Part shown: piece by piece, positions 22,500-63,160 of the stretch
How the letters are laid out: every line of letters begins with the position of its first letter
How positions within the stretch are numbered: position 1 is the stretch's first letter
DNA from: Prorocentrum cordatum
Lineage: Eukaryota > Sar > Dinophyceae > Prorocentrales > Prorocentraceae
Direction: 5' to 3'
Assembly (NCBI GenBank): GCA_963575745.1
Contig: CAUYUJ010015688.1
Coordinates: 207,501 to 271,500, forward strand
DNA: 64,000 nt
Notes under the pieces: generated by a model
The model's database searches: none
What the model saw: only the letters and a program-made list of their open reading frames with translations
Told to the model about the DNA's origin: nothing
Translations under genes and position numbers: made by a program

Positions 22500-23722
<1,223 letters not shown>

Positions 23723-42183: not shown

Positions 42184-42618
42184 AACTACCGTCATCCTCA
42201 CCCCCGGCGCGGTGCCCAGAGGAGCCCAGAGCGGCCTCCGGCACCGTTTCCGGACAGATCCGGTGGATCCGGTGGATCCGACGAATCCCAAACCGGCGCC
42301 CTCGCTTGAGACATCCTCACAAAACCGGCCCCGGGGGAGGTGCCCAGAGGAGCCCAGAGCGGCCTCCGGCACCGTTTCCGGACAGATCCGGTGGATCCGG
42401 TGGATCCGCCGACGAATCCCAAACCGGCGCCCTCGCTTGAGACATCCTCACAAAACCGGCCCCGGGGGAGGTGCCCAGAGGAGCCCAGAGCGGCCTCCGG
42501 CACCGTTTCCGGACATATCCGGTGGATCCGGTGGATCCGCCGACGAATCCCAAACCGGCGCCCTCGCTTGAGACATCCTCACAAAACCGGCCCCCGGCGC
42601 GGTGCCCAGAGGAGCCCA
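42184..42618. repeat. ~129-bp satellite, left block (3.3 copies)
   Basis: Units read GAGGTGCCCAGAGGAGCCC, AGAGCGGCCTCCGGCACCG, TTTCCGGACAGATCCGGTGG, ATCCGGTGGATCCGCCGACG, AATCCCAAACCGGCGCCCTC, GCTTGAGACATCCTCACAAA, ACCGGCCCCGGG. The block stops within GAGCCCA, where the left inverted repeat of the 11.2-kb element starts. The array resumes on the other side of the element at 53864. ORFs across it are repeat-derived. Confidence 0.95.
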
Positions 42619-42619
42619 T

Positions 42620-42651
42620 TTGGATGGCCGACAGAGTTGTTGTAGCTTGTA
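42620..42651. repeat. Left terminal inverted repeat
   Basis: Starts TTGGATGGCCGACAGAGTTG and ends TAGCTTGTA. Thirty-one of 32 bases match the reverse complement of 53831-53862. An extra T (42619) lies between the satellite and the repeat. Confidence 0.92.
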
Positions 42652-43042
42652 CGATTTAAAACTTGCGATATCCCTAGTTATAAGCAACACGATCCCTAGT
42701 TATATGTCTGGACATGTTTGCAGTATCAATATAATACGTTATAGGTGTTGACATGTCCATAACATCTGCGGATAGAACAAATAAGACATAACCTAGGGAT
42801 ATGTATTCGACATAACATGCAACATATCCAAGAAATAAGTGATTCAATTAAGTCAACTAAGTTAACTAACCTAAGAAGGGCCAGCTGAACGGGCTAAAAA
42901 AAAAGACGAAGACAAACAAAAAAAAAAAAAATCGCGGCACAGAAAATTAAAAAGGAGAAGCGAACGGAGAGGCAGGCGGCGGAGGAAGACATGGAAGGAG
43001 GGGGGGAACGCGACGCATGTGGCGGCTTATCCGCTAGCGGTC

Positions 43043-43080
<38 letters not shown>

Positions 43081-43140
43081 ATGAGGAGGGGCGGATGAGC
43101 GGGTAATCCGCTACAGCGGCTGATCCGCTTTTTTATCCAA
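42652..43140. other. AT-rich subterminal region with palindromes and (T)36
   Basis: ATCCCTAGTTATA is repeated at about 42670 and 42691, followed by TGTTGACATGTCCA- and AACATA-rich sequence to about 42880. The 36-base T run at 43044-43079 (A run on the gene strand, downstream of A1) is flanked by GCGGCTTATCCGC (43022), GCGGGTAATCCGC (43099) and GCGGCTGATCCGC (43116). No gene. Confidence 0.75.
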
Positions 43141-43156
43141 ATGATTCTCTCCGAGC

Positions 43157-45139
43157 TCAGTGAATCACCGCCAGCGTGTTGTCGCTCTTGAGGAACCATC
43201 CAGTCGCCTTGCGCGCACCCTCGGGCACCAGGAGCTCCGACTGTCCCGCTCCAGTCCAGATAGAGTACCCACCGAGCGGCTCACGACGCACCAGCGCAAG
43301 CTTTCCCACGATAAGCGCTAGAACGCCACCTGCGGACAAGCACACTTGAACCTCGACCGCCGCGTTCTGAATGAAAACCACGCTGCCAACTCTGAGCAGC
43401 AAGCCCCGCCACCTCATCTGTTTGGACACGACGTAAACCTGGCCAAATTTGTCGGACAACGGCTGGCTCACCGCCACGGGCTCGCACAATTCGGTCATCC
43501 TGACTTTGCCCATCGCTGGGAACACCTTGACGAGAAGCTGTTGGACCGAGCTTTTCTCGAATGCTGCCGCGTTCGCGATGTGAGTCATTGATTGCTTCGC
43601 GATCTTGTTCTTCCTTTCGTACACAAAGCAATCAAGAAATATGTCGTCCTCTTGGTCTGACACAGCGTGCCACTGATAATGATGTTTTGGGACGATGGCG
43701 TCGAGGCGGCACGCGGCCTTATGCGCGTCAAGGAAACGGCCAACTGCACGCCGCATGATATCTTTCATAGCAACGGGCGTGGAATAGTGCTTTGCCTCGT
43801 TGATGCTGTCCAGAACGTCACAGAGACGGAGGTAGCTCTGGCGCTCCAACTGCACCTTGTGCGCGGGAACGTGTTCAACAACAAAGTATCTGATGAATGG
43901 GTATGCAGACAATAGTTCAGGGGCCCCCGCGCGAAAGACACCGCCTGATTTCCACGCCTTCTCCCGAGACCCGTTGAATATGTCAGCGAACTCGCTCCTG
44001 GTCAACCCTCCAGGGTTCCAATGCCAGTCGGCCTCGGCGAACGTCTTCAGCAAACGGAAGGAAAACCCAGGAGTACACTCAGCAACGCCATTAAAAAGCA
44101 AGCCAATCTCGATATTCGCGATGCCGCCTGCCAGGTACACGCGCATGCAATCGCGCAACAAGCAAGAATGTGGAAGCACGTGTGGGCGAAGACCCTTGTC
44201 GGCCAGAACGCCGTGTTCGTTCAAAGAAAATCCCATCGTTGTCTGTGCCGTTTTCAACGCACCCCCACGCCTGCACACGGCATCCAGAATATCGTGCGTG
44301 CGCCAGACGTCCTCGTCTGACACCGGGTCGAACTGCGAAGGATCAGAGCACGAAACGTCGACCAGGTACGTGCCAGTCTGATGATCGACCAGCGAATCAG
44401 TCACGCCATCTTTGTTCAGCTTCACTACGTTCTTGCATGATATGGAACAACACCTAATGCCGCCAAAGCCTTTCGCGTCGAAGAACGCTTTCGTCGCAAC
44501 TTCGTCACCGATCAACCGCTGAAATTTGAAATACATAATCCGCGATTGGCCACCGCGCGGCACGCTGGCGCCTGCCACGGCGACGCTGTCGGAGCCGAGC
44601 AGGAGCGAACGCAGGAGCGCCTTGGCCGCAGCTGGGAACCCCCCCTGCAGATCTTTAGCGATGGTGGCGCGCAGCACGCCAACGGGCAGCCATGCCTCTT
44701 CGCGTCGCAGATAGCGTCACATCTCAAGTGTGCCGATATACCAGCACGTGGTATTTCGCTTGTTGTTCAACCTCAAAGCATCGCCAGGCACCGCGTCATC
44801 TATGTAGAGCGCCAGGCGCCACGGCCTGTCGAAACTATTCGGTGACCTCGCCACTGCATTCTCGAACTCCTCTCTGAAACCCGCGCACTGGGCAAGACAC
44901 CTCGGGGGGAGAAGTTGATACTTGGCGATGGTCCAGTCAAAGGCGTCGCCGCCCTGCCTTTGCAGCGTCGGCTGAACAAAAAAGTCCGCAGTGAACGTAT
45001 CCACGCACTCCCGCGCATCTCGCCGAGACGCCGCTTCATCTCTCCCCAGCGCGGCAAGCGCCGCCACGCCGTCGCTATCGCTGAAGTTCCGCCTGCTCAA
45101 CATATCGAGGAGCCTCTGCCGTTTCGCGAGCGGCTCCAT
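43157..45139 (-). pseudogene. Gene A1: transposase-like protein with one in-frame TGA
   Basis: A single minus-strand frame runs from ATG at 45139 (MEPLAKRQRLLDML) to the stop at 43157, about 660 codons, interrupted only by TGA at 44719-44717. Reading on in frame gives EEAWLPVGVLRATI, which aligns with EELWLPLGILRATV in the A2 homologue at 57246-59291, so both halves belong to one protein. Shared features in order: FDWTIA; DDAVPGDALRL; C-x-D near YLVDVSCSDPSQFD; GFSLNEHGVLADKGLR; RDCMRVYLAGG; PKHHYQWH; DCFVYERKNK. D-x-MH-type and C-F-x-x-E-R-x-N-K stretches resemble acidic-residue motifs of CACTA/KDZ-like DDE transposases; this link is inference, not a secure family call. The TGA may be an inactivating mutation, an assembly error or recoding. 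The 3' end is followed by a palindrome cluster and a T run. Confidence 0.7.
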
Positions 45140-45479
45140 GGCCGACAGAGGCGATCGGGGAGGCAGCGGTGGAGGGGCGGGAGGCGGGACAGGGCGCCGA
45201 TCGCCCGATGCTGAAATGGCTGCGGAAAGAACGATGGGGCGGAGATGCTGAACTTACATCAGCACAAGCAGCAGGAGAAGGATGATGGGGGGAGCGAGGG
45301 GAAGGGATGGGTGAAAGGGGGTGAGGCGTAGGAGGAGGGAGAGGAGGAGGAGGGAGAGGAGTGGGAGGAGGCGTGAAATGGAAGCACGGGGAACGCAAGG
45401 AAGGAGGAGGAAGAGGAGGAGGAGGAGGAATGGAAGTACGGAGGATGAGAGGAAGGAATGGCCGACGAGCAGGAGGAAT

Positions 45480-45700
45480 GAACGACGAGCGGATGACCCG
45501 CTCAGCGGTTGAACCGCTGCTGAGCTTGAGAAGATGAAGAAAATGACTGGCGGATGACCCGCCGAGCGGTTGATCCGCTTTTTTTTTGATTGCTGGATTT
45601 TTCAGCGGTTGAGCCGCGGCTGAGCTTGAGAAGATGAAGAAAATAACTGGCGGATGATCCGCCGAGCGGTTGAACCGCTTGTTTTTGATCGATGGATTTT
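45480..45700. repeat. Palindrome cluster between A1 and B1
   Basis: GCGG-N5-CCGC motifs and variants (GCGGATGACCCGC, GCGGTTGAACCGC, GCGGTTGATCCGC, GCGGATGATCCGC) occur about eight times. They are embedded in two copies of a ~103-bp unit that contains CTGAGCTTGAGAAGATGAAG and GATGGATTTTTCA-type words. The cluster lies 5' of A1 and 3' of B1. A GGAGG-rich purine tract precedes it (45320-45440). Confidence 0.85.
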
Positions 45701-46255
45701 TCACGAGCAACCTGAACGCATGAAAACCGACCCCCGCCCCCCACATGAGGAACTTTAGACCAACTAGACCGCGGGCGCGGGCCCCCCCCCCTGCGGCAGC
45801 TGGCAATGGCCTCCCTTACAAGACGCCTACACCTACGCACATTCGCCATACTTGTTAAACGTTGACATCTAAAATCCATTGTTGTGGGGGCTGGGGTCGG
45901 TTTCCCACTGTTCACAACCGTCCATTGAAGTTGGTGCGAGTTAACCCCGAGCGGTGCTGCAAACTGAGCGCTACCCCGTGATCGCGGCGTGCCCCCTGAG
46001 ACTAGCAGGTGCAGTCGGGGCTCGCGCGGTCGGGCGCCATCCGCGGCACTACCCACGTCATGGCAAACTGCAGGGCTAACCGAGCGCTGGGCGATGTCAG
46101 CCCCTCGTCGGCAGGGCGGGCCTGAAGCCAAAGCTGGCTGGAAGCATGCACGATGCCTCCCGCGCGACTGCAGCGCCGACCTAACACATCGTCCCCGCAG
46201 AGACTCAGACGGGCAGTGAGAAGACGGGCGGTCACAGCAGACGCAGACGGAGAGA
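45700..46255. other. Spacer between A1 and B1
   Basis: About 550 bp with no gene I can support. It contains a C run near 45785 and CACTACCCACGTCATGGCAAA at about 46046. The same CACTACCCACGTCATGGCAA segment reappears at about 51340, 3' of gene E, suggesting a duplicated intergenic piece. Confidence 0.5.
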
Positions 46256-46257
46256 GC

Positions 46258-47703
46258 CTACACATCGTCCCCGCTCGGAACGTTGCTCTCCGCAGTGCTC
46301 AGCAGCTTGGAAAGGAGCGCGGCAGCTTCGATCGAAGTCTTCACAAGGTCATTCACTTCAGCCACCGTTGTCGTCACCTCACCCCCCATGCCGCGCTCGT
46401 CGTGGACCTTTCTGAACTCAGAGTAAAGCTTCTCAAGCTCCTTGAGCTTCTTCTTGGCTGGATCGATGCCGTACTTCGGCACGTGCTTCGACATCGGATC
46501 CTTGAGGTCGCGATCAAGAGAGATCCTGGGCCTCTCGATCTTGCACAAGACGCGGGTCGCCAGGGCAACGTTCTTCTTGGCATGTTTGGCTTTCTCTTGC
46601 TCGAGCTTCCTCTGTTTCGCCTGCAGGCCCTTGTCATTCTCAGACTTCGAGTCCGAATCCGAATCCGAGGTCGAGGACGCTGCGCGCTTCTTGGACTTCT
46701 TGTCCTTCTTGTCGCGCTTGTCCTTCTTATCGGCCTTCTTGGATTTCTTGGACTGCTTCTTGGATTTCTTCTGTTTCTTCGACTTATTCCCCTTCTTGCT
46801 GCTCGTCTTGCTCGAGCCGCTATCCGAATCATCTGATTCGCTCTTGCCTGGAGCTGGCTGCGTCGGCTGCGTCGGAGGCGGCGCCTTCGCCTTCGCTTTC
46901 AGCTCCTGCACCTCGGCGCGGGCGAGCTGCTCGATCGTTTTCGAGTAGCCACCCCTGCTGTCCACGCGGTAGCAAGTTCCGAGGATCTTGTGTTCCTCGG
47001 TGTCCTTGCACTCCTTCTCGATGCGTTTAACATCGAACCCGCGCTGGGCGTAAACTGACAACGGCAGATATTCCCCGCCCACTTGGGCAACCTCCTGCTC
47101 GATCCGAGTCGTCGTGAGAGTCTGGACGAACAGCTCCTCGAGCTGATCCTTACCAGCCTTCTCCTTTGCGTCTTGCCAGAACTTCGCTTGCAATGAGGAG
47201 TCAAGCCTCCTGAAGCTGGCAGGTGGCCACGATCCGAACAAGCGGGACAACTGCGTTCCGCGCGCGTTGCACTTTTCGCACTTCCACGAGCCCTGGCATT
47301 TCCCAATCAATGGTGCCCTCAAGACATCGACCTCTTGCTTGCACCTGTAGCACGTTGGGTTTGACGGCTCGCGCTTGACCTCAGGACCTTGCCAGACGAA
47401 GACCTCGCCTGGAGTCGGAGGCGGCTTGAGCACCGGAGAGGAAGCCTTGTCTGCCACCTCCTGAGTCGGAGTCGGCGCGCAGGCGGCGTCTTCGACGGCA
47501 AGCGGTTCGGACGAGGCAGCGGCCCCCGACGAGGCAACATCGTCGCCTTCGGACGCATTCTCGAAGTCTCCCAAGTCGGCCACCTCAGGAGCTGCGAGCG
47601 CCAACGTCGTCGCCGTCAGGCTATCGGCAGCCTCCGAGCCAGAGGCAACCGACCCAGGCGACTTGAACTTTGTCCACCACGCAACTGTTGCGTCATTCGC
47701 CAT
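46258..47703 (-). CDS. Gene B1: zinc-ribbon protein with charged C-terminal half
   Basis: An intact 481-codon ORF from ATG at 47703 (MANDATVAWWTKF). Residues 1-110 are acidic and Ala/Ser-rich. Cys118-x2-Cys121 and Cys142-x2-Cys145 (with Cys136) form a probable zinc ribbon. Then come FGSWPPASFRRLDSSLQAKF, GEYLPLSVYAQRGFDVKRIE and EHKILGTCYRVDS, which are shared with B2. A Lys/Ser/Asp-rich tract (about 270-345; KKSKKQSKKSKKADKK type) looks like a nuclear or nucleic-acid-binding tail. The C-terminal ~110 residues (LATRVLCKIERPRISLD onward) are again similar to B2. No known family was recognised. Next to a transposase-like gene in both modules, it is a candidate accessory or DNA-binding protein. 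Its function is unknown. Confidence 0.8.
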   Translation of the reverse strand: MANDATVAWWTKFKSPGSVASGSEAADSLTATTLALAAPEVADLGDFENASEGDDVASSGAAASSEPLAVEDAACAPTPTQEVADKASSPVLKPPPTPGEVFVWQGPEVKREPSNPTCYRCKQEVDVLRAPLIGKCQGSWKCEKCNARGTQLSRLFGSWPPASFRRLDSSLQAKFWQDAKEKAGKDQLEELFVQTLTTTRIEQEVAQVGGEYLPLSVYAQRGFDVKRIEKECKDTEEHKILGTCYRVDSRGGYSKTIEQLARAEVQELKAKAKAPPPTQPTQPAPGKSESDDSDSGSSKTSSKKGNKSKKQKKSKKQSKKSKKADKKDKRDKKDKKSKKRAASSTSDSDSDSKSENDKGLQAKQRKLEQEKAKHAKKNVALATRVLCKIERPRISLDRDLKDPMSKHVPKYGIDPAKKKLKELEKLYSEFRKVHDERGMGGEVTTTVAEVNDLVKTSIEAAALLSKLLSTAESNVPSGDDV

Positions 47704-48175
47704 CTCGACGGTGGCCGTCTTGCTCTTCGGGCGCCGCGGCAGGTGGTGGCATCAACGCCAACTGCAGCGACATCGGCGCCGCGAGAGACGAGATGGGGCA
47801 CGGGGGTGCAGAAGCCCGCGCGCGTTGCCCTGCAATCACAAAGGCTGCGGATGGAGGAGAGGAGGATGCCGTACGTGGAGAGAAAAAAAAAAAACTGGCC
47901 CAGAATACGATCTGTGCAAATGTTTTCCCCTGGAGGTACGCGAAGGCGCGGAGAGAGGAGAAGAACGGTTCCTATCGAGTCGCGTTTCGTGATAGCAGAA
48001 CGGCTTCTATCGAGACGAGGGGGGGGTTAAGATAAACGGAGTACCACGCTCAGTTTGCCCGAGGAAAAGGAGGATTTGTTTCGATTCCATTCGCACGCTC
48101 GGTTTGAGCTTCAGGGCGGGCGAGGGTCGATGTCCAGGATGGCGGGTGGCAAAATATCTGAAACCGCGGAGGAGG
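47704..48175. other. Upstream region of B1
   Basis: About 470 bp between the B1 start and the foldback. It includes GCGACATCGGCGCCGCGAGA and an A run at 47883-47894. Short ORFs have no domain. It may contain the B1 promoter, but no motif is recognisable. Confidence 0.4.
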
Positions 48176-48177
48176 GC

Positions 48178-48533
48178 GATGACGACCGATGACATCCGAT
48201 AAACCCGATAACATACCGATAACATCCGATAACATCCGATGACAACCGACATACAGATAACAGTTACCGGATGTTGCGCTAACATGCGATAACATCCGAT
48301 AGCGTTCGCCGATAACATCCGATAACAACGTTATCGGAGGCAATTTCGGCTCCGATAACCGTTATCGGACGTTATCGGACGTTATCGGACGCTATCGGCT
48401 GTTATTTTGATGTTATCGGCTGTGGTTTCGTTGCCGATAACAAAGCGTTATCGGCGTTACCGGTTGTTATCGGGCGATCCGATAACATCGTTATCGAAAC
48501 GCTCTCGGTCGTTATCGGTCACGTCGTTGAGTA
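48178..48533. repeat. GATAAC/GTTATC foldback, module 1
   Basis: The left half (about 48180-48335) is direct repeats of (AC)ATCCGATAACA/CCGATAACA. The right half (about 48345-48530) is GTTATCGGACGTTATCGG-type repeats, the reverse complement. The two halves can pair into a long hairpin centred near 48340. It lies upstream of B1 and 3' of gene C. A foldback of the same GATAAC core sits upstream of B2 in module 2. Confidence 0.9.
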
Positions 48534-48625
48534 GCGGATGATCCGCTGTGTGGCGGCTGATCCGCCGATGCCCTTCCCTTGGCGGATGATACGCCGATCA
48601 GCGAGTGAACCGCTCGTGACAATGA
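48534..48625. repeat. Palindrome cluster between foldback and gene C
   Basis: GCGGATGATCCGC (48536), GCGGCTGATCCGC (48554), GGCGGATGATACGCC and GCGAGTGAACCGCT lie within 90 bp. Confidence 0.85.
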
Positions 48626-48780
48626 TCCAAGATGATGAGCGCACCGACGAGGAAGGTGTGCTGGTGTTCCCAGCAAAGGTTCGGCGTCCAAGCCCGCGAA
48701 TGAGCACCCGACGGGGGCGTGCTAAGCGAGGCGCCGACGCGCGTGGCCAAAACCTCAGAGCTCCGCCAGCAACCTCTCGG

Positions 48781-49359
48781 CTAGCGCAGGGGGAGCACGC
48801 GCGTCGGCTGAACGTACGACTCGATCACCTCGACGCACTGCTGGATGCACGTGACCTCCTCGTTGAACGCCCGAGCCGCTTTGGCGCAGAGGTTCGCCGC
48901 GCTCTCCGCCGAGACCTCGGCGCGCTTCAGCGAGTCGACGCATGCCCTCACCTGCATCTCCGAGAGCGTGATGCGACCCGTGCCAGCACCCGTCGGCGGC
49001 GCGCTGCTGGCGGGCTCCGAGGTGGGCTGCCACGGCAAGCTCTTGCGCTGCTTCTTCTCCCATCTGACCTGGTCGTCTGCCCACTTCTTCTTGTCGACCT
49101 CCCAGGACTCGATCAAGTTGTAGTCGACGGCCGACTCAGCCTCGGAGCGCTCGAGCTCGTGGTAAGGCGACGTCACCAAGTGATGGGCGACCGGCTCCAC
49201 GGCATCCTCGTGCGAGTGGCACGTCTTGATGGTCGCCGAGCGCTTGCTGCACTGCGAGCCAAAGGGGCGCTTCCCACCCCGCAGAACCCACGTCGGGCAT
49301 GCATCGTCAGCGTGCGCGGCTGGCTGCACATCAGCGGAGGAGGACGCAGCGTCCGACAT
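48781..49359 (-). CDS. Gene C: hypothetical 192-residue protein
   Basis: An intact ORF from ATG at 49359 (MSDAASSSADVQPAAHADD) to TAG at 48781. Residues 1-50 are Ala/Ser-rich, with WVLRGGKRPFGSQCSKRSAT. Residues 60-110 are acidic and basic mixed (YHELERSEAESAVDYNLIES, KKKWADDQVRWEKKQRKSLP). The C-terminal third (ITLSEMQVRACVDSLKRAEV, NLCAKAARAFNEEVTCIQQC) is probably helical. No family recognised. Lies between palindrome clusters at 48534-48625 and 49465-49585, like the other genes of this element. Confidence 0.65.
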   Translation of the reverse strand: MSDAASSSADVQPAAHADDACPTWVLRGGKRPFGSQCSKRSATIKTCHSHEDAVEPVAHHLVTSPYHELERSEAESAVDYNLIESWEVDKKKWADDQVRWEKKQRKSLPWQPTSEPASSAPPTGAGTGRITLSEMQVRACVDSLKRAEVSAESAANLCAKAARAFNEEVTCIQQCVEVIESYVQPTRVLPLR

Positions 49360-49464
49360 GGATGCGGAAGCTGGCGGCGACGGGCGGCCCGCGCGCGGTT
49401 CGCGTTCGAGCCAAGACGCCTATACAGAAAAAAGCGGTGCGACGGCATGTGCGTGGCGAACACA

Positions 49465-49585
49465 CAGGCGGGTAAACCGCCATGGCGGGTGAGCCGCCGA
49501 GGAATCACAAGTATGACGCGCGCGCAGTGACACTCGTGCACACACAGGCGGGTGAACCGCCATGGCGGATGAGCCGCCGAGGGAG
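49465..49585. repeat. Palindrome cluster between C and D, duplicated
   Basis: CACACAGGCGGGTAAACCGC plus CATGGCGGGTGAGCCGCCGA is repeated about 82 bp later as CACACAGGCGGGTGAACCGC plus CATGGCGGATGAGCCGCCGA. Each is two GGCGG-N-CCGCC palindromes in tandem, i.e. the module-1 signature. Confidence 0.85.
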
Positions 49586-49618
49586 TACAAGCATTTTTTC
49601 CAAGAACAACAGTGCGCG

Positions 49619-50834
49619 TCACAGGAAGGACAACGGCCCGCGCCCGCTGGCGTCCTGTGGATTGGTCGCCCGCCGCTTAGGCCTGCGATGCGGCGACGGC
49701 GTCCGAGGCGCGGGGCGCTTGGACGTGGGCTGGAGGACGTTCTTGCCCGCGCGCGCGTCCTTGCCCTTGTCCGCGCCCTTGTGGCCGCCCTTGCTCTTGA
49801 CGGCCGTGCCCTTGCGAACGCCCTTGTCTCTGTCCGTGTCCTCGTTGGCGCCCTTGCCGTGCTTGCCAGCTGTGCCCTTGCTGGAGACAGCCTCCTTGCC
49901 CTTGCCCTTGGCCGCGGGGCGCGCGATCGGCACGGGGGCGAACGGCGTCATCTTGGGCGTCGGGCGCGCCTTGCTAGTCGGAAGCTCGACCGTCGGCGGC
50001 ACCATCCTCGGCTGGTGGGCCTTCGGGGGGGCGACCATCATGCGCGCGACCCCCTTGGACTTGCTCGCGCGAGCGGCCTCGTCCTCCTGGAAGGCCTGGG
50101 TGCCTCGTCCCATGCCGAACTTCGCAACGAAGCCTTCTTGCCGCAAGCTGCGGCGTCGGTCCTCGTCCTCGAGGCAAGCCTCCGTGCCTCGCTCCGTGCC
50201 GAACTTCGCCTGGAACTCTGCAAGCTGCACGCTGCGGCCGCCGCGGGAGCCCCACCGACCGCTGTTCTGCCTCCAGGCTTGGCCCCTCCACTCCTTGGAC
50301 CCTCCCTGCAACGGGCCAGGGGGGGCCCGTTGCTTGAATTTCTTGTGGCACTTGAACTCCAGGATCAGCGTCTTCTCGACGTTGATGACGGCGGGATCGT
50401 TCCAGTCCACGGCGAGCGGACTCACCGCCATGAGCAAGGCAATCCGTGCGAAGTCTGGATCCTGGTTCATGAACTGCTGGACGCGTCCTGCCGCGCCGTC
50501 GGGAAGGGCCAGGTCGCCCGCGTCGCCTGCCTGGTCACGCAGGACCTCGTCGACCGAGCGCTCCAGATCACCATGGTCGATGTCGACCTGATCTCGAGGG
50601 CGGACGGGGCTGTCGACCTCCACCTCCAGAGTCGCCGACGCAGCAGAGCTCGAAGCAGCAGCAGGCTCCTCCAGCGGGCTCTCGCGGACAGGCTCCGTGG
50701 CCAGGCTCCTCGAGCACCTTCCTGAGGCAACCGATCACGTGCGACCTTTCGGCGTCCATCTTCTCGAACGCATCGTCGGCCTCTTCGAAGAAGCTCTGGA
50801 GGTCTTCGTAGGCGGACTTCTTCGGCGCCGCCAT
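49619..50834 (-). CDS. Gene D: hypothetical basic protein, frame change near 50700
   Basis: The likely start is ATG at 50834 (MAAPKKSAYEDLQSFFEEAD, a helical stretch to VIGCLRKVLEEPG). Near 50700 the protein-like reading moves to another frame (EPVRESPLEEPAAASSSAAS, then EVDSPVRPRDQVDIDHGD) and stays open to the stop at 49619. A single-base indel or a small intron would join them, giving about 400 residues. The middle part contains two similar segments with FGTERGTEACLEDEDRRR and FGMGRGTQAFQEDEAARA, an internal repeat. The C-terminal ~110 residues are Lys/Gly-rich (KGKGKEAVSSKGTAGKHGKG, RRPKRRATN), suggesting nucleic-acid binding. No family recognised. Confidence 0.6.
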
Positions 50835-50879
50835 GGCGCCCTGCGAGCCCGTCGCGCGCGCGTGCGCCCCTGCGAGCGC

Positions 50880-51215
50880 AAACGGCCATGGCATCGAACG
50901 CGCATGAACCTCCCTTTTTGTCCGTTCTGGCCCAGAAACGCTCCCGCTCTGGCCCAGAACCGCCACCGTCCTGCCCCTGTGGCTTCGATTCTGAACCAGA
51001 GCGGGAGCGGTTCTGGACCAGAGCGGCAGTTCCCTTTACACAAGCAAACTTCTGCTCGTTCTCATCCCTCTGGTTCCTAGTCATGCCATCCCTCCATATT
51101 CCTGCTCAGACCTCCCTGCCCCTGCCAGCGCGCAAACGAAATCGACGAACGACGACCTGGCACAACGTGGTAAGTAGCGGATGATCCGCTGAAAGCGGTT
51201 GATCAGCTTTTTTGT
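50880..51215. repeat. Spacer between D and E with inverted repeats and signature palindromes
   Basis: At 50928-51030, CTGGCCCAGAACCGCCA, GAACCAGAGCGGGAGCGG and TTCTGGACCAGAGCGGCAG form repeated, partly inverted units. At 51178-51215, GCGGATGATCCGC and GCGGTTGATCAGC precede a T run. Confidence 0.7.
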
Positions 51216-51443
51216 TCAACGCCTTTTCTTGCAAAGCAGTGGCGCGCATAGAGGTGCAACGAGTTCACCGAAGAACGAACTTCATCACGACCGCAACGCG
51301 CGCCAGACGAAGAAACCCAACGCCGATGCCATCCGTAGCACTACCCACGTCATGGCAAAGTGCTCATACTGACGGCCATCCGTCGGCATGGCTGCGCTGA
51401 ATATGGCACGTCGTGCCGACAGCTACGCGCAGCCGTCACCCCC

Positions 51444-52886
51444 TCAGCCGACGCGCAGCCGATCCTCGATCCACTGCTTGGCGGCCTTCTTGGACGTCTC
51501 CTTCGTGAAGCCTGTGTTCGGGCCCCATTTGAACACCTTGGTCGAGCCAGGGCCCCTCCCGTAGTGCGCGACGCACTGACTGCGCGTGTTCTCCACGCTG
51601 ATTTTGGTCACCACCGCCGCCTTGCCAACAGGTGCCGACGCTGGCTTCTTCACGCATGTCTTGGCAGCGGGCTTCGCCTTGGCCTTCGCTTTGGCCTTGC
51701 TCTCCTTCTCCTGCTGCATGGCAACGTGCACCTGCATGGCCGCTGCTTCCACAGAGTCCATCTTCTTCGCTTTCTTCGCCGTCGAGGCCCCTCCTGCAGA
51801 GGCACCCGCCGAGTGGGCGTCCTCGAGGGCGAACTGACTGGGCTGAGGCTGCGGCGGCTGATGCTGCTGCTGCTGCTGCTGTTGCAGCTGTTCCTGGAGC
51901 TGCTTGACCTGCAATTGCAGGTTGTAGTTGTCCTGTTGCTGCTGCTGCAACTGCTGCTGCTGCTGCTGCTGCTGGAGGTCCGTTACCGCGAGCTGCCCTG
52001 CGGCCGACGTCGCAGCCGCCTGCGCGCCAGCGAGGCTGCGCGGCTGCTTCCCTGCGAACGTCAACACCGCACCGTTCGCGAGCCTCTCTTGCTGAGGCTG
52101 CTGCAGCGTCTGTCCCCGCATATTCTGCAGAGCCTGCAAAAGTGGCGCCGGCGACGCGGACCCTGCGCGCTGCCTCTCGCGCCACTTGAACGATTTAGCC
52201 ACCGCGGAGACATCGACGAAGGACACTCCGATGCTCGCAGGACCACCGCCGCCGTACGCAGAGGCCCACGCGGCGGGGAACGCAGCTCGGAACGCGTCGG
52301 GGTCAGCTGGGAGCGCGGCCATCTTCTCCAAGGGCTCTGCCTTGACCATGCCCTTCCACATCGTCTTGATGTGGTCAAATGTGTCTTTCAAGAAGTGGGG
52401 GCTCATGCTGCGGGCCGCTGGGGCCCCATCTACGCAGATCGTCGCGAGGGCCGCCACGTGCGCGAGGGTGCCTTCTGACGGGTTCTTGAGGCCCAGCTTC
52501 GAAGAGCGAAACGACAGAACAGAACGAGCCTTGTGCAAGACGTCCCCACTGGGGTCGCTGAACACGGCCCACACTTCACCACTCAAGAAATACGGGAAAT
52601 GCTCGAAGTCCTGCGACTTCCACGCCCCGCCACTGCTCGAGGCTGCCGTGGCCAAGGCGTTCTGCAACAGCTGTGCGTCGGCAGGCGCGAAGCTGTCTTG
52701 CTGCGCCAATCCCGCGAGACGAATGAGCAACTGGCCCTGCGGGCGCACCAGTCCGACGAGCTCGACCAGCCGAGCAGCCTGCGCACTCGACGCCTGCTTC
52801 CACGCGGCCTCGCCCTGGCCCCTCGCAGCGCGCAGTAAGGGGCCCGCCCCCTCGGCGCGCTGAAGGAGCTCCTGCTGGAGCGCCAT
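51444..52886 (-). CDS. Gene E: Gln-rich protein, 480 residues
   Basis: ORF from ATG at 52886 (MALQQELLQRAEGAG) to the stop at 51444. The ORF is open further upstream only through the G run, so this Met is preferred. Residues 1-260 look globular (FEHFPYFLSGEVWAVFSDPS, LSFRSSKLGLKNPSEGTLAH, VGVSF-like IGVSFVDVSAVAKSFKWRER). Residues about 290-350 are Gln-rich, interspersed with leucines, and likely coiled coil. A Lys/Ala-rich stretch follows (KAKAKAKAKPAAK). The tail contains RSQCVAHYGRGPGSTKVFKW and TKETSKKAAKQWIEDRL, which looks like a compact domain. I do not recognise the family. It is the gene closest to the right TIR and is preceded by the large palindrome array at 53040-53500. Confidence 0.7.
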   Translation of the reverse strand: MALQQELLQRAEGAGPLLRAARGQGEAAWKQASSAQAARLVELVGLVRPQGQLLIRLAGLAQQDSFAPADAQLLQNALATAASSSGGAWKSQDFEHFPYFLSGEVWAVFSDPSGDVLHKARSVLSFRSSKLGLKNPSEGTLAHVAALATICVDGAPAARSMSPHFLKDTFDHIKTMWKGMVKAEPLEKMAALPADPDAFRAAFPAAWASAYGGGGPASIGVSFVDVSAVAKSFKWRERQRAGSASPAPLLQALQNMRGQTLQQPQQERLANGAVLTFAGKQPRSLAGAQAAATSAAGQLAVTDLQQQQQQQQLQQQQQDNYNLQLQVKQLQEQLQQQQQQQHQPPQPQPSQFALEDAHSAGASAGGASTAKKAKKMDSVEAAAMQVHVAMQQEKESKAKAKAKAKPAAKTCVKKPASAPVGKAAVVTKISVENTRSQCVAHYGRGPGSTKVFKWGPNTGFTKETSKKAAKQWIEDRLRVG

Positions 52887-52981
52887 TCTCGCGCAGGCTC
52901 TCCAGACGCGCCGCCGCCCCGCGGCAGCCCGAGCCAAAAGGGGCTGCGATAAAAGGCTGCGATGAAAAGCTGAAAAGGCTG

Positions 52982-52982
<1 letters not shown>

Positions 52983-53022
<40 letters not shown>

Positions 53023-53032
53023 GGGGGGGGGG
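52983..53032. repeat. G run, (G)39 T (G)10
   Basis: Thirty-nine consecutive G, one T and ten more G just upstream of gene E. Such runs are hard to sequence, so the length is uncertain. Confidence 0.9.
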
Positions 53033-53039
53033 AGGAGGA

Positions 53040-53500
53040 GGCGAGTGATCCGCCGACATATGGTGGCGCAGAGCCGCCCGAGAACGCGGCTGATCCGCAA
53101 AATCGAAGGATGGGGGGGCGCGCGGTTGATCCGCAGGGAGGGGGTGGGGGGGGGAAATGCGGCTGGTCCGCAGAATGAGAGCATGCGGATGAGGGGGGAA
53201 GAAAGCGGTTGATCCGCCGCAGCATGCGAAGATAAGGAAGGCGGTGATCCGCCCAAGAGGGGCGAGGAGGAGGATAAGGAAGGTGGTAATCCGCCGAAGA
53301 GGGATGATGAGGAGGATCGAGAAGGCGGTCATCCGCCGAAGAGGGACGAGGAGGAGGATAAGGAAGGCGGTAATCCGCCGAAGAGGGATGAGGAGGAGGA
53401 TCGAGAAGGCGGTAATCCGCCGAGGAGGGATGATGAGGAGGAAGGCGGTAATCCGCCGAAAAAGGATGAGGAGGAGGATCAAGAAGGCGGTAATCCGCCG
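53040..53500. repeat. Large palindrome array upstream of gene E
   Basis: About 13 copies of the module-1 signature with changing centres (GCGGCTGATCCGC, GCGGTTGATCCGC, GGCGGTAATCCGCC, GGCGGTCATCCGCC). From about 53235 they become a regular ~60-66-bp tandem unit containing AAGAGGGATGAGGAGGAGGA and AAGGCGGTAATCCGCCG. A (GGA)n tract follows to 53552. Confidence 0.9.
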
Positions 53501-53559
53501 AAGAGGGAGGAGGAGGAGGAGGAGGAGGAGGAGGAGGAGGAGGAGGAGGAGGGAGAGCA

Positions 53560-53830
53560 GGAGTTTTTTTTTTGCGTAACCTGACAAACGCTCAACGAAC
53601 ATCAAGCAAGCGCGCCCAGAAAACACGCACAACGCAGGCAAACCGCAGGTGCAACCAGCAGACGACGCCAAGCAAAAAAAAGGCGCCGATGAAAAAACAA
53701 GCGTCCGAACAAACCTCTCGACTTATACACTTATTAAGTTGGCTAATAAGTGTATATATGTGTGTAGTTAAGTCTCTGTTAGCAACATGTTATGTGACAT
53801 ATTAGTACCTACGATGTTGACTATTTGTAC
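53560..53830. other. Right subterminal region of module 1
   Basis: A T run (53564-53572), A-rich sequence, and CTTATACACTTATTAAG...CTAATAAGTGTATA, an inverted repeat at about 53721-53757. No gene. Confidence 0.6.
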
Positions 53831-53862
53831 TACAAGCTACAACAACTCTGCCGGCCATCCAA
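53831..53862. repeat. Right terminal inverted repeat
   Basis: Begins TACAAGCTACAACAACTCTG and ends GCCATCCAA. Partner of 42620-42651 with one mismatch. A single G (53863) separates it from the satellite word CAGAGCGG. Confidence 0.92.
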
Positions 53863-53863
53863 G

Positions 53864-54386
53864 CAGAGCGGCCTCCGGCACCGTTTCCGGACAGATCCGG
53901 TGGATCCGGCGGATCCGCCGACGAATCCCAAACCGGCGCCCTCGCTTGAGACATCCTCACAAAACCGGCCCCGGGGGAGGTGCCCAGAGGAGCCCAGAGC
54001 GGCCTCCGGCACCGTTTCCGGACAGATCCGGTGGATCCGCCGACGAATCCCAAACCGGCGCCCTCGCTTGCGACATCCTCGCAAAACCGGCCCCAGGGGA
54101 GGCGCCCAGAGGCGCCCAGAGCGGCCTCCTCCGGCACCGTTTCCGGACAGATCCGGCGGATCCGCCGACGAATCCCAAACCGGCGCCCTCGCTTGATACA
54201 TCCTCACAAAACTGGCCCCGGGGGAGGTGCCCATGCTGCAGAGTAGCCCAGAGCGGCCTCCGACACCGTTTCCGGACAGATCCAGTGGATCCGGTGGATC
54301 CGGTGGATCCGCCGACGAATCCCAAACCAGCGCCCTCGCTTCAGACATCCTCACAAAACCGGCCCCGGAGGAAGGGGAGGTGCCCA
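53864..54386. repeat. ~129-bp satellite, right block (about 4 copies)
   Basis: Same unit and orientation as 42184-42618, with copies somewhat more diverged (deletions in the GGATCC region; a CCATGCTGCAGAGTAGCCC variant at about 54230). It ends at GTGCCCA, where unrelated sequence starting CTTAAAGGCTTCAAGATC begins. Confidence 0.95.
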
Positions 54387-57245: not shown

Positions 57246-59291
57246 CTACGAGTGCAAGACTGCGTAGTCGCCTCTGCGCGTCACGCGCCACGCCCACACC
57301 GTGGGCTCCAGGCAGGCATCGGCCATCTTGATGATGAGGAACTCGTCGATCACGCGCCCAGTACTCCTGCCCTGCGAGCGCGCTGAAATTTCGATCCCGC
57401 GCGCGACGACGTGCAGTTCGCCAGAGATGGCAGCGCACGCGTCGAGGACGAACATCTCGCCACCGCGCGAGCGAACCACATCGCCCACGCTGTACGTTAG
57501 CCCGCCCCAGCGCAGCGAAACCGACACGGAGACGTCGACGTCCCCGACAAAGGAGCGCAACTCGTCGGAGTCGGCTGCAGCCCCCGTCAGCGCGTTGCCA
57601 GTCGGCCCCGTTTGTTCGAGTTGCCTCTCTTGGTGCAACACTGCGCTCGCGAGCGCCGTGCACTCAAAGCGCGAGGTGCAAAGCGCTGGTTCGGCGACTG
57701 CTTTTACCGTCTTGTTGTGGCGCTCCGTCACGAAGCAGTCGAGCTCCTTGGGCTCCTGGTGCGCGTTGTGGAGCACGTAGTGGTGCTTGGGCTTCACGTG
57801 GTGGACGCCGTAAGCCTGCTTGTGCAAGTCCAGATGGACTTCCGCCGATGCAACGAAGTCGTTGCGAGGGGCGGCTGTCCCACGCTTTACGTCCATGAAC
57901 GCGCGCGCCAGCAGGCCGCGCGCGCGGAGGGGCGCCAGTTCGCGCTCGAGAGACTCGATGCCGACGGCTTTCTCCTCGGCGAACGCCACCGCGAGGTGGA
58001 TGGGCGATGCCAGCTCGCTCGCGCCTGCCTGGAATGACTTCTTGCACGCGGTCGCGTGCCCAGGCGGGGACATATTGTGCGCAGCTCGCGAGCGCCCGCG
58101 CTGGAACTGCCAGCGCCGCGTGAACCTGTGGGCATCGGGAAAGGTGATGCTCGCCTTGCTATTGCACGCCGTCGTAAACGCAAACACCTCCCATCCAACG
58201 GTGCCGTTGCTCCACAGGTTGTGCATGCTGTCATATGCCATGTCGGACGGCTTCACGACTGCCCGCAATTCCTTATCCTCCAGCAGGCCGTTGGGATGGA
58301 AGTTGAAACCGCTGGCCTTGTCGAGCTTCTTGAAGTCACCTTTCGATACATGGCCATGTAACCCCGCGGTCGCCCACGCAGCGGCGAGGTCGTCCCACAG
58401 CTTCCACGCGTCGTCGGCTGACTGCGCGTCGAAGCGCGCGAACTCGTTGCAACGTATGTCGACGAAATAGCCGCCGTCGCCGCCGACGGAGGCATACTTC
58501 ATGATCACGTTCTTGCACTTCAAGCGCGGCCTCCAGCCGTTGGCGCCCCTCAAACATAGGATGCCTTTGTGAGCGTCCATGTCGGCGAGAATCTTGCCAG
58601 CCCGCGCCCGCGCCAGCGCCGAGGTGCCGTTGGCAAGCGTCACGGGCGCGCCAGAGCTCGCCAGCCTGCTGCGCCCGAAGGGCACCTCCCTAAGGAGGAG
58701 CCGAACAACGCATGAGATGCCGCCGTCCACGCCGTCGCTCACTGTTGCCCGCAGAATCCCCAGCGGCAGCCACAGCTCTTCGCTGTGCAGATGTGCAACG
58801 CCGAACTCTGTGAAGGTAAAGAAAAATACCCAGAATTTCCGATCGTGCCGCAGGGCCAATGCGTCGCCTGGCGCGACTTCGTCAGCATACAACACCAGAT
58901 TGAGCGGCGCGCCACGGGCGCTGCTCACCGCCTCCGCGAATCGCTCACTGTACGATGTGCTTTCGCGACACATGTATTTCAGGAGCTTGTCGGCTCGGGC
59001 GATCGTCCACTCGAAGGGCGCGCCGCCGCCGTCCACGGGCAGCTGGATGGTCGTCGAGGCGGCATTGAGCACGTCATCAAAGGTGTTGCGGATATTTTGT
59101 CGGGTTACGTGCTCGGCAACGTCAGGCTGATGCGAGATCTTCTTGGCGAGCTGTGCGAGGGCTCTGCCCGTGATCCCACTCGTGCGGAAGAGCTCGGATA
59201 GTTTGCGCCGCTTGGCCTTGCTGTCGTCGACGACGTCACCCATCGTTCGCGCGGCCCTCGCAGTTCCAGAGGCGCGGGCCGACGCGGCCAT
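57246..59291 (-). CDS. Gene A2: transposase-like protein, intact
   Basis: An uninterrupted minus-strand ORF ending at 57246. The first convincing ATG is 59291 (MAASARASGTARAARTMGDV), giving 681 residues; another Met at 59243 is possible, and the frame is open further up through a palindrome cluster. It aligns with A1 over its whole length: KRRKLSELFR; FEWTIARADKLL; YADEVAPGDALALRHD; EELWLPLGILRATV; YFVDIRCNEFARFDAQ; GFNFHPNGLLEDKELR; YDSMHNLWSNGTVGWE; VKPKHHYVLHNAHQE; DCFVTERHNKTVK. Basic-rich patches and the D..., D-S-M-H and C-F-x-x-E-R pattern fit a DDE-type transposase layout. DSMH/DPMH and C-F-x-x-E-R-like motifs are seen in CACTA and KDZ-type enzymes, but overall similarity to those is not demonstrated. 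Function is inferred; homology to A1 is directly visible. Confidence 0.75.
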   Translation of the reverse strand: MAASARASGTARAARTMGDVVDDSKAKRRKLSELFRTSGITGRALAQLAKKISHQPDVAEHVTRQNIRNTFDDVLNAASTTIQLPVDGGGAPFEWTIARADKLLKYMCRESTSYSERFAEAVSSARGAPLNLVLYADEVAPGDALALRHDRKFWVFFFTFTEFGVAHLHSEELWLPLGILRATVSDGVDGGISCVVRLLLREVPFGRSRLASSGAPVTLANGTSALARARAGKILADMDAHKGILCLRGANGWRPRLKCKNVIMKYASVGGDGGYFVDIRCNEFARFDAQSADDAWKLWDDLAAAWATAGLHGHVSKGDFKKLDKASGFNFHPNGLLEDKELRAVVKPSDMAYDSMHNLWSNGTVGWEVFAFTTACNSKASITFPDAHRFTRRWQFQRGRSRAAHNMSPPGHATACKKSFQAGASELASPIHLAVAFAEEKAVGIESLERELAPLRARGLLARAFMDVKRGTAAPRNDFVASAEVHLDLHKQAYGVHHVKPKHHYVLHNAHQEPKELDCFVTERHNKTVKAVAEPALCTSRFECTALASAVLHQERQLEQTGPTGNALTGAAADSDELRSFVGDVDVSVSVSLRWGGLTYSVGDVVRSRGGEMFVLDACAAISGELHVVARGIEISARSQGRSTGRVIDEFLIIKMADACLEPTVWAWRVTRRGDYAVLHS

Positions 59292-59389
59292 CGCGCGCCG
59301 AGCTCGGCGAGGCTCGGTGGGCTCGCCACCAACTCCCTGCGGTCGAGCCCGAGCCGACGCGGCTATTGTGTGCCCAGCCTCGCCCCGCC

Positions 59390-59635
59390 CGCCCAAGCGA
59401 TCGCTATCGCTTCATCGCTTCCCCCCTCCAGCGATCGCAATCGCTTCCCCCCTCCACCTCCGCCGGGCGATCGACGTCGCTTACCCCCTCCACCCCCGCC
59501 GTGCGATCGACATCGCTTTCATGCTCGCCCCAGCGATCGTCATCGCTTCCCCCCCCCCCCCCGCCGAGCGATCGACATCGCTGACCCCCTCCACCCCCGC
59601 CGAGCGATCGACATCGCTTACCATTTTCCCTTTTC
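59390..59635. repeat. Palindrome cluster between A2 and B2
   Basis: About seven motifs: AAGCGATCGCTATCGCTT, AGCGATCGCAATCGCT, GGCGATCGACGTCGCT, GTGCGATCGACATCGCTT, AGCGATCGTCATCGCTT and GAGCGATCGACATCGCTGA with a duplicate. They are spaced by CCCCCTCCACC(C)CCGCC. Confidence 0.9.
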
Positions 59636-59753: not shown

Positions 59754-62515
59754 TCAGCCAGGGAGAGCTGCCGTCGACTTGGCCATCGTGCTCACCACCT
59801 GGGCCTGCGCGGTCGCCTGCTGCGCGCAGGCGTGGACCTCCTCCGCGGTCCACGTGAACGTCGACGGGTAGGCCTTGTTCTTATTGATATTCTCTCCGAC
59901 CTTCTTCATCGTGCTCAGCTTCTCCAGCAGCCCAGTGGCCTGCGTCATGCTGGCCTCTGGGATATTGCTGACCCCTGGGGTGCCAGACTGCATCGCCATC
60001 TCCAGCTTGGACATGGGCATCACGATCTTGGCTAGGGAGCGCGTGACCAGGAGCCTGAGATCTTTCTCCTTCTTATCTGCGTCTGCCTTCTCCTTCTTCT
60101 CTGCCTTCTCGCGCGCCTTGCGCTCCTTCTCGGTCTCGGTCGGGGGCGCAGAAGGTCCTCGCTGTCCGTGCCCGCGCGGGGGCGGGGCGTCCGAGCTGCT
60201 GTCGCTGTCCGAGCCCGAGCTGCTGGTGCTCGGCGGCTTCACCTTCTTGGACTTCTTGGAAGCAGGGGCCGAATCGGACATCTCAGCGCCCTTGCGCTGG
60301 CCCGTGCCACTGCCCTTGTCAGCGTCCTTAGCCTTGCCCTTGGCCGTATCCTTGCCAGTGTCCTTATCTTTATGTTTGCCGCTGCCCTTGTCCGTATGCT
60401 TGCCGCCGTCCGCATTCTTATCTGCGTTCTTGCCGCTGGCCTTGTCCTTGTGCTTGCCGCCGTCTTTACCCGTGCTATCATCCTCATCCTTGCTCCGATT
60501 CTTGCCAGCGTCGTTATCCTTATCGGTACCTTTGATTTTCTCTTTGCCACTGCCTTTGTCCTTATGCTTGCCGCTGTCCTTGTCCTTGTCAGCGCCTTTG
60601 TCCTTATGCTTGCCGCTGTCCTTATCCTTATGCTTGCCGCCGTCATTCGCCGTGTCCTTGTGGTTGCCGCTGTCCTTATCCTTGTGCTTGCCGCCGTCCT
60701 TATCCTTGTCCTTAGCCTTGCGCTTGCCGCCGTCCTTTTCCTTGTCCGCATCATTGTCCTTCTCCTTGTCCTTATCCTTGCCCCTTTGCTTCTCCTTGTC
60801 TTTACCCTTGCGCGCGTCCTTATCCTGATCCTTCGCCTTGCCCTTGGCGTTGCCCTTCTTTGCGTCGCTGCCATCGTCGGAATCGCTACTCTTCACATGC
60901 GAACCGCCCCCCTCGCCCATGCTGTCATCGGTGCCGTACTGATCATCGTCATCGGCCTCATCGGAATGGGGCCCCTCCTCGTCGGGGCACGTGCTCGCCT
61001 CAGGCGCGTCCTCCACCTCATCATCGTCCTCATCCTGTTCGAAAGAATCATCCGTGTCACCCTGGTCGTCATGCTGAGAGGCCGCGGCAGCCTTCTTCTT
61101 CATCGTCTTGTTCTCATTCACATTCCCCTCGTCTGAAACTTCGGCCTCGACCCCTTCGGCTCTCGAGCGACTCGCGATCTGGGGCCCCCACTTCTCGAAC
61201 AGGTGAATGTCCACCTTGTAGCACATTCCCAAAATTGGGTGGGATAACGTGTCCGTGCACGTCTTGCGGATCCTCTTGTACGGGAACCCCTGCCTCTTGT
61301 ACCAGCCCAACGGGTAGTAGCCCCCCTTCGTCATGTGCTTGCTCTCTTTTCCTTGGTGCTCGTCAGCGTCTCCTTCAAGAACTTTTTGACTGCGAACGTA
61401 TTTGGGCAGTCCTTCACCGAGGCCCAGAAGCTCGTCCTCTCCTCGACGCTGAAGCTCTTGATGCCCGACGATACCTCCTTCCACTCGGGCGCTCTGGTGG
61501 CCTGCACCCCTCTCGTGCTGCACAGCGCGCATCTGAACACTTGTCCTTTTTTTGGTGACGCGGACGGGGCACGCCTTCATAGCGTCGCATGGTTGCTGGT
61601 ATCGGCCGCACAAGTAGGCTCTTTCTGCTTCCTCCAAACACAGCTGCTGCGCCCTCTTGCTTGGGCTGCTGTTCAGGGCGAACGCTCCGACTTTCCACTT
61701 GGCGCCCGGCGCGTCCTCGCCCCAGCCGTCATCCTCGGTTGCCGTGCCCGCCGCCTTCGCCTTCGGCGGCGACATTGCCTCCGTCGCCTTCGGCGGCGCG
61801 CCCTTCGCCTTCGGCGGCGCGCCCAGCTGCTTCGCACCCTTCGGCGGTGGCGGTGCCGCGCCCTTCGGCTTCGCGCTCGCCGACGCGGCGGCCTGCGGGG
61901 GGCCTCCGCTCGCCTTCGCGGAGCTCGCGCTCGCCGACGCCCTCTTCGGCGGCGGCGGTGCCGCGCCCTTCGACGTTGCGACTGTCGGCCGCATGAAGCT
62001 CGCGATGTCGGCGTATCCCGTCCCCTTGTTCCTGGCGGCCTCCTTTGCCTTGGCCGCGGCCTCGGCCTTCTCCCTGGCGGCTGCTTTCACCTCCTCCTTA
62101 GCGCGGGCCTTCTCCTTAGCCACGGCAGCGGCCTTCTCCTTAGCGCGGGCCTTCCCCGTCTTCATAGCTGGCTTCATAGCTGGCTTGGTGGCAGCGGCTG
62201 GCCTCTTGAGCGCGGCCCGTGATGCGCCTTCCTCCCCATCAGCCTCCTCATCTTCTGGCGGCGGCTGCAGCGCGGCTGGCGCCTCGGATGGCGGCGCCGC
62301 CGCCGATGGGCCACCATCGGATGGCGGCGCCGCCGCGGATGGACCACCATCGGATGGCGGCGCCGCCGCGGATGGACCACCGTCGGATCGCGGCGCCCCC
62401 TCGGCGCCCAAGCCCAACTCTTGGATGAGCGCCCCCTGGATCTCTCCCTCACCTGGGCCCGCGAGCTGCAACGTCTCCGCGTCGCTGACCTCGCCGAGAC
62501 GACGACGACGACGAC

Positions 62516-62775: not shown

Positions 62776-63160
62776 CTCGCCTAAGTGGCATAACTGACTT
62801 AAGTAGCACCCCGTGTTATCCTTTTGTTATCCTTTTGTTATCCTTTGTTATCTTTTTGTTATCCTGGGATCGGGGTCATATATGATAACAAAAGGATAAC
62901 AAAATGATAACAAGGGTCAAATAGGATAACACAAGGATAACAAAATGATAGCAAACGGATAACATTGGTCAAATAGGATAACATGGTATTATTTTGTTAT
63001 CTTTTTGTTATCCTATTTGGCCTTGTTATCATTTTGTTATCCTTTTGTTATCCTATCGGCCCTGATCCCAGGATAACAAAAGGATAACAAAGGATATCAA
63101 CATGAAAACAAAAGGATAATACTGGGTGCTACTTAAGTCACTTACGGAACTTACCCTACA
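62776..63160. repeat. GATAAC/GTTATC foldback, module 2
   Basis: The left arm (about 62776-62880: TGACTTAAGTAGCACCC, then TTATCCTTTTGTTATCC repeats, then CCTGGGATCGGGGTCATA) matches the reverse complement of the right arm (about 63055-63160) almost base for base. The centre (62885-63050) is itself GGATAACAAAATGATAAC repeats facing TTGTTATCCTATTTGG repeats. The whole 385 bp can fold into one hairpin. Position upstream of gene B and the GATAAC core are as in module 1 (48178-48533). Confidence 0.92.

Follow-up and report, generated by a model that had tools for sequence, protein, structure and literature searches.

Most cut-and-paste transposons of eukaryotes carry one or two genes. The CMCT clade, whose members are EnSpm/CACTA, Mirage, Chapaev, Transib, Plavaka, ESTA and Lanisha, is described in the accessible part of its source as sharing a transposase motif order, D-D-C(2)C-H(3-4)H-E, target duplications of 2-5 bp and mostly 5'-CA..TG-3' ends (PMC12730594). 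Here we describe an 11,245-bp element with inverted ends and five genes, named A to E, that lies in a satellite array of the dinoflagellate Prorocentrum cordatum. It is contained in a stretch of 64,000 nucleotides (hereafter the window: positions 207501-271500 of contig C14839, in an assembly of 4,128,499,153 bases and 21,875 contigs) and had been singled out in an earlier note made from the sequence of the window. The window copy is old, broken and inactivated. What it very probably derives from is an autonomous five-gene terminal inverted repeat (TIR) DNA transposon, with A as the likely transposase and B-E as its partners; this multi-gene element is a new variant of TIR DNA transposon, probably at the superfamily level.

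Ends, target sites and copies of the element

The element spans positions 42619-53863, limits that were set by comparison with other copies. When 42620-42651 is set against the reverse complement of 53831-53862, 31 of the 32 bases agree, which bears out the 32-bp inverted ends claimed in the earlier note, and comparison with the other copies extends each end by one base, giving 33-bp TIRs: the extra base on the right is G (53863), and that on the left is C in the other copies and T (42619) in the window copy and its twin on contig C13206. The satellite picks up in register outside the element, as the note had stated; of the two overlaps that it had offered, the 2-bp CA (42617-42618 and 53864-53865) stands and the 3-bp alternative does not. 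The site in its uninterrupted form, GAGCCCAGAGCGG, can be seen in an adjacent satellite unit near 42222. The boundaries are therefore:

42617..42618, no strand: left target site duplication (CA), 2 bp; matching 2-bp duplications at 12 of 13 independent sites
42619..42651, plus strand: left TIR, 33 bp; first base T here, C in other copies
53831..53863, minus strand: right TIR, 33 bp, recognized by the inverted-end match
53864..53865, no strand: right target site duplication (CA), 2 bp, recognized by comparison of insertion sites

In the whole 4.13-Gb assembly we looked for matches to the end pattern, tolerating up to 3 mismatches and using the reversed pattern as a control; the genome-wide counts given here are lower bounds, and the absences mean that none was found. 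The pattern occurred at no fewer than 47 places, versus 0 for the control, and a chance origin is excluded. Thirty-seven of the 47 sites have at most 2 mismatches, and all 37 are inside 19 gene-bearing copies (family 1), 18 of which have their ends paired 11.2-13.7 kb apart. The other 10 sites, all with 3 mismatches, were assigned to a sister family (family 2): eight of the contigs concerned are among the A or B matches listed and another, C16632, is among the D matches, C1580 being absent from the A, B and D matches listed. The genome-wide end search revealed neither a solo family-1 end nor a short gene-less derivative. Likewise, no short element with family-1 ends was found in the genome, and there is no sign that the family drives introners.

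Target duplications were scored in the 14 of the 19 copies for which both ends were in hand. The same two bases flank both ends in 13 of them, with letters that vary from site to site (tg, ag, ca, ta, tc, cg, cc). The window copy and the C13206 copy represent one insertion (the elements are 99.96% identical, their flanks 98.8% and 90.4%), so that the independent count is 12 of 13. Nine young copies, at different sites, show 99.35-99.86% mutual identity, which speaks for recent activity; the identity between them and the window copy is about 95%. At C18962:111199-122403, the left-hand 1.5 kb resembles the young family (99.2-99.4%) and the middle of gene A carries the TGA of the window copy: this copy is thus a mosaic, a pattern suggestive of recombination or of gap repair between copies.

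These data settle several points raised by the earlier note. The search that it had proposed for further copies of the ends and genes yields the 19 genome-wide copies, and ends scattered independently of the genes, which it had named as a refutation, are not what was found, all 37 sites with at most 2 mismatches being in gene-bearing copies. The other family-1 copies sit in sequence other than the window's satellite. The interior recurs at 18 independent sites and is therefore not an assembly join. The recurring interior and the 2-bp duplication together uphold the view that the whole 11.24 kb entered the array as a unit.

Arrays of short subterminal repeats are a feature of plant-type CACTA elements. 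The subterminal zones of the window element have a G+C content of 45% and 42%, versus 60%, and share a few 8-mers, a clear repeat array not being seen in them. Elsewhere in the window are found a 1.2-kb (TAC)n array (22505-23722) and an 89-bp tandem repeat of about 23 copies (13832-15919).

Five genes and the palindromes at their boundaries

The five genes lie head to tail on one strand, an organization in line with the unidirectional, tandem gene arrays reported as usual in dinoflagellates in the portion of PMC11453091 available. The note's five minus-strand genes are confirmed, with a correction for the TGA in A and the frame shift in D of the window copy (around 50,700); B, C and E are open. 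The compositional features given below were recognized by eye.

43157..45139, minus strand: gene A, a candidate DDE transposase that has 660 aa in young copies; TGA at 44717-44719 here
46258..47703, minus strand: gene B, 481 aa, open; zinc-ribbon-like CxxC...CxxC region, and a long tail rich in Lys and Ser
48781..49359, minus strand: gene C, 192 aa, open; N-terminal part Cys-rich
49619..50834, minus strand: gene D, 408 aa in the majority of young copies; split here into 50568-50834 and 49619-50734
51444..52886, minus strand: gene E, 480 aa, open; middle Gln-rich, C-terminal part Lys-rich

Ten copies were read besides that of the window, nine over their whole length and C1436 to a point beyond gene E; they comprise the nine young copies and C13206. 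In the young copies, A (660 aa) and C (193 aa) are of constant length in 9 of 9, B is open in 8 of 9 (C6669 carries a TAA), D has 408 aa in 7 of 9 and E has 481-483 aa in 8 of 9, with all five frames full length in six copies. Since A reads through 660 aa without a stop in all nine, we take the TGA in the window copy to be a mutation. A public gene model (P0001) skips this TGA; treating it as part of an intron was rejected, as the intron would delete a conserved PG..L..NKRK stretch.

The genes travel together. A, B, C and D were each detected in 19 of 19 family-1 copies by the genome-wide search, and E is present in all 11 copies read, the window copy included. The 76 rows of A matches listed correspond to 51 places (25 further rows at the same loci were dropped) and the 90 rows of B matches to 84; among these listed matches, B lies no more than 6 kb upstream of A, in the same orientation, at 47 of the 51 A places, including 19 of 19 in family 1, and one of the four places with no listed B, C14269:226962, does carry B. 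The co-occurrence of A-E, which the note had proposed to check, is thus observed in the 11 copies read, in one sister-family copy and in one distant-family copy.

The association extends to divergent relatives. In family 2, A is about 83% identical by the genome search, and 85% by tblastn in the single copy read, which keeps A-E in unchanged order and strand. Family 4 is a 10,335-bp element with inverted ends CTGGCGTAGCGACTT.., a 32% identical A, the gene order E-D-C-B-A and 2-bp duplications at both sites (tg and ct); the match to D is weak (73 aa, E 4e-4). Two family 4 copies on contig C14269 are 99.8-100% identical over the main pieces compared, and one (C14269:213500-230000) is flanked by satellite about 94% identical to that of the window, so that this satellite family hosts at least three such insertions. 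A fifth family was recognized through C: of 947 candidates, 150 rows were scored, and 109 of these show 32-40% identity, most of the 109 having a 220-aa open frame; the data point to a recent large expansion. In this family, D is upstream of C on the same strand in 39 of 39 contigs, picked as those in both the C and D lists, C is upstream of B in 6 of 6 contigs common to the B and C lists, and A (38% identical) follows B in the single copy checked. Outside the assembly, ENA contains relatives of three of the proteins: A at 49-77%, B at 26-64% and E at 27-67%. One A relative and one B relative are each recorded on a single contig of 10,178 bases, a shared figure that suggests A-B linkage in another species.

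The window itself contains a second, distant element in the same satellite array, running from 54387 to beyond 64000, with its other end outside the window. By eye, it begins CTTAAAGGCTTCAAG after GGTGCCCA. It carries an A relative at 57246-59396 (minus strand, 29-31% identical), a short B-like match at 61203-61328 (minus strand) and 20 AGCGAT..ATCGCT palindromes, none of which occurs elsewhere in the window.

All five genes are under purifying selection. We compared one copy each of families 1 and 2 and determined the ratio of nonsynonymous to synonymous substitution rates (dN/dS) with 95% bootstrap intervals: 0.19 (0.14-0.25) for A, 0.46 (0.35-0.61) for B, 0.45 (0.29-0.71) for C, 0.66 (0.49-0.84) for D and 0.64 (0.48-0.81) for E. 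The five intervals are all below 1, showing that all five proteins matter in the long term. When the window copy is compared with a young copy, the values are 0.39, 0.30, 0.48, 0.71 and 0.42 for A to E, respectively. The five genes move together and are selected together.

The boundaries between the genes are themselves marked by short palindromes, GCGG-nTnAn-CCGC and close variants (GCGGATGATCCGC in family 1). The window element contains 26 of them and the remaining 52.8 kb of the window has 0; none is in the five open reading frames (ORFs), and each of the six non-coding segments holds at least one:

43022..43128, no strand: 3 palindromes, left end to gene A
45489..45678, no strand: 7 palindromes, between A and B
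48534..48565, no strand: 2 palindromes, between B and C
49468..49577, no strand: 4 palindromes, between C and D
51177..51189, no strand: 1 palindrome, between D and E
53086..53499, no strand: 9 palindromes, upstream of E

The intergenic punctuation that the note had attributed to the element is therefore real. A young copy contains 24 palindromes, in all six segments and in none of the five ORFs, which make up 59.5% of the element, and 500 shuffles of its sequence gave a mean of 0.09 palindromes and a maximum of 2. Family 2 has 15, again in all six segments. The sequence differs in family 4 (AGCGAT..ATCGCT), where 11 hits fall in 4 of the 6 segments, none in the genes as bounded here and none in the flanks; the distant-family palindrome reads AGCGATTGAATCGCT. 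This combination of fixed position and changing sequence suggests that the palindromes are putative binding sites for an element-encoded dimeric protein, or putative gene-boundary signals. A different repeat, of the GATAACA type (10-11 bp, both strands), forms non-coding clusters in both window elements, at 48177-48500 and 62814-63119.

Gene A as candidate transposase and the rival explanations

Gene A encodes, in order, D114, D212 in GDEVA, C(2)C or C(3)C at 231/235, D330-x-MH, H487-x3-H491 and E508 in DCFVxER. D212, C235, D330, H487, H491 and E508 are invariant in the seven A proteins aligned, and position 114 is acidic in the six that have this region. The H(3)H motif is present in all seven; the 32%-identity family and the fifth family have an exact C(2)C, family 1 and its near relatives have C(3)C, and the first Cys is missing in the second element of the window. 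On this motif pattern, A is most likely a DDE transposase. The UniRef cluster name attached to A, RNA-dependent RNA polymerase, was set aside as being without domain support.

We propose that A would cut the element out at its 33-bp ends and insert it into staggered breaks, which would give rise to the 2-bp duplications. B-E would be element-encoded partner proteins, probably DNA binding, that make movement efficient or regulated, and at least one of them may bind the family-specific palindromes and thereby organize transposition or expression. The data show the ends, the 2-bp duplications, movement as a unit, the joint occurrence and order of the genes, selection on all five and where the palindromes lie; catalysis by A, assistance by B-E and the role of the palindromes are what we infer.

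Several observations weigh against such an interpretation. The counts from the genome are lower bounds, as said above. Copy C1436 has a single end, its right end not being detected, copy C1547 lacks a matching duplication (cc/cg), and in the family 2 copy C and E are each interrupted by one stop. With regard to selection, the window-versus-young intervals extend above 1 for C and D, and polymorphism among the young copies, based on few changes, gives ratios of nonsynonymous to synonymous polymorphism of 0.67-2.54, i.e. no constraint, a result compatible with relaxed selection after insertion. As for A, it had no match in Pfam (E<=1; E<=10 for six A proteins), no meaningful match among PDB sequences (best E 0.08, unrelated names) and no homology to CMCT transposases by hmmscan or hmmsearch. 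AlphaFold2 models built from 6 and 7 sequences were poor (mean predicted local distance difference test scores of 42.3 and 46.7); the first placed D114 and D212 two residues past the ends of predicted strands, the arrangement expected of an RNase-H-like fold, but at a confidence below 50, and was given no weight. With neither a Pfam or PDB match nor a good model, the catalytic role of A rests on the motifs.

These same data bear on the possibility that the element is a divergent, otherwise ordinary CACTA/EnSpm (CMCT-clade) transposon, whose TnpA-like second protein has been split or multiplied into B-E, and for which no new superfamily is needed. CACTA elements with two genes are known. The D-D-C(2)C-H(3)H-E order and the 2-bp duplication also fit the clade as characterized in the accessible part of PMC12730594. 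The termini do not: they are CTTGG..CCAAG in family 1 and CTGGC..GCCAG in family 4, i.e. CT..AG and not 5'-CA..TG-3'. Moreover, A matches no Pfam transposase model and the conserved genes are five, not two. We consider this explanation unlikely, though it deserves to be kept in mind.

It is very improbable that a one-gene transposon, consisting of A and the ends, has picked up a set of adjoining host genes as cargo. Accessory cargo is frequent in large elements, and B-E match no known family in Pfam (E<=1) above the curated cut-offs, as the note had surmised; the weak rows obtained for B and E (best Cwf15 8.5e-4, TFIIA 1.2e-3) concern their Lys- and Gln-rich parts and are below these cut-offs. 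A cargo would not account for a gene set and order kept across families whose A proteins are about 32-38% identical, nor for purifying selection on all four partner genes, and 0 of 19 copies have A and the ends without B, C and D. Cargo capture is thus largely refuted.

An integrated virus or polinton-like element is hardly credible. Size, inverted ends and the presence of several genes would suit it, as would the UniRef name of A. This name is however without domain support, capsid, polymerase and ATPase are unmatched in Pfam for the five proteins, a pattern scan of viral contigs for A gave 64 matches of which 0 were confirmed, and polinton duplications are longer than 2 bp. Finally, an assembly or satellite artefact, which the location in a tandem array and the recovery of one insertion on both C14839 and C13206 might have evoked, is refuted by 19 copies at 18 independent sites, in differing contexts and with site-specific duplications.

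Comparison with known systems

The autonomous five-gene transposon reading has consequences at several levels. Dinoflagellate genomes are huge and repeat-rich, and an autonomous five-gene element with recent copies provides a concrete mobile system there, as well as a case in which the possible dependence of a eukaryotic transposon on several of its own proteins can be tested. It is unusual in that no short gene-less derivative was found for family 1, that its palindromes differ between families and that four unknown proteins are conserved over deep divergence. Five protein families with no Pfam assignment thereby gain a known genetic context. No description of such an element was found in the full-text literature searched, whose scope left most subscription journals and bioRxiv outside.

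The earlier note had spoken of a new class of element. The multi-gene character holds and the novelty is probably at the superfamily level; because A has the known DDE motif layout of the CMCT clade, we prefer the term variant of TIR DNA transposon to new class. A broader proposal, which we put forward tentatively, is a new multi-component superfamily in which a CMCT-like transposase would be obligately joined to four partners, forming a five-protein machine loosely like bacterial Tn7, with partners that would co-evolve with the boundary palindromes; it would include five or more families, probably amounting to some hundreds of copies in P. cordatum, and extend to other plankton. Acceptance by specialists as a new multi-component superfamily is conceivable, and we would stop a little short of expecting it.

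Bacterial Tn7 has a five-protein transposition machinery and 5-bp duplications. The Prorocentrum element is like it in having five proteins on one element; Tn7 is bacterial, and the likeness is one of description. In VANDAL and MuDR elements, partner proteins act on the DNA of their own element; these have two or three genes, long duplications and a MULE transposase. The element-encoded partner proteins are a common trait, whereas five genes and 2-bp duplications are not. Polintons/Mavericks are long multi-gene protist elements with inverted ends, from which the present element differs in that their hallmark genes (capsid, protein-primed polymerase, packaging ATPase) are unseen by Pfam in the five proteins.

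With the CMCT clade, as far as the accessible part of PMC12730594 describes it, the element shares the order in which the acidic residues and the C(2)C and H(3)H motifs follow one another in A, the TIRs and a duplication within the 2-5 bp range; it departs from it by its ends (CT..AG versus CA..TG), by the lack of Pfam-level similarity, by four extra conserved genes and by family-specific boundary palindromes. The same text reports that KDZ and other fungal TET-carrying transposons, like the Prorocentrum element, have an additional gene beside the transposase, with duplications of 7-8 bp in KDZ (Kyakuja 7, Zisupton 8) versus 2 bp here (PMC12730594). In these fungal carriers, according to that part of the source, the extra gene encodes a TET/JBP dioxygenase that is found on diverse transposases (PMC12730594), whereas the Prorocentrum element has four proteins, none of a known family, that remain associated with a single transposase lineage.

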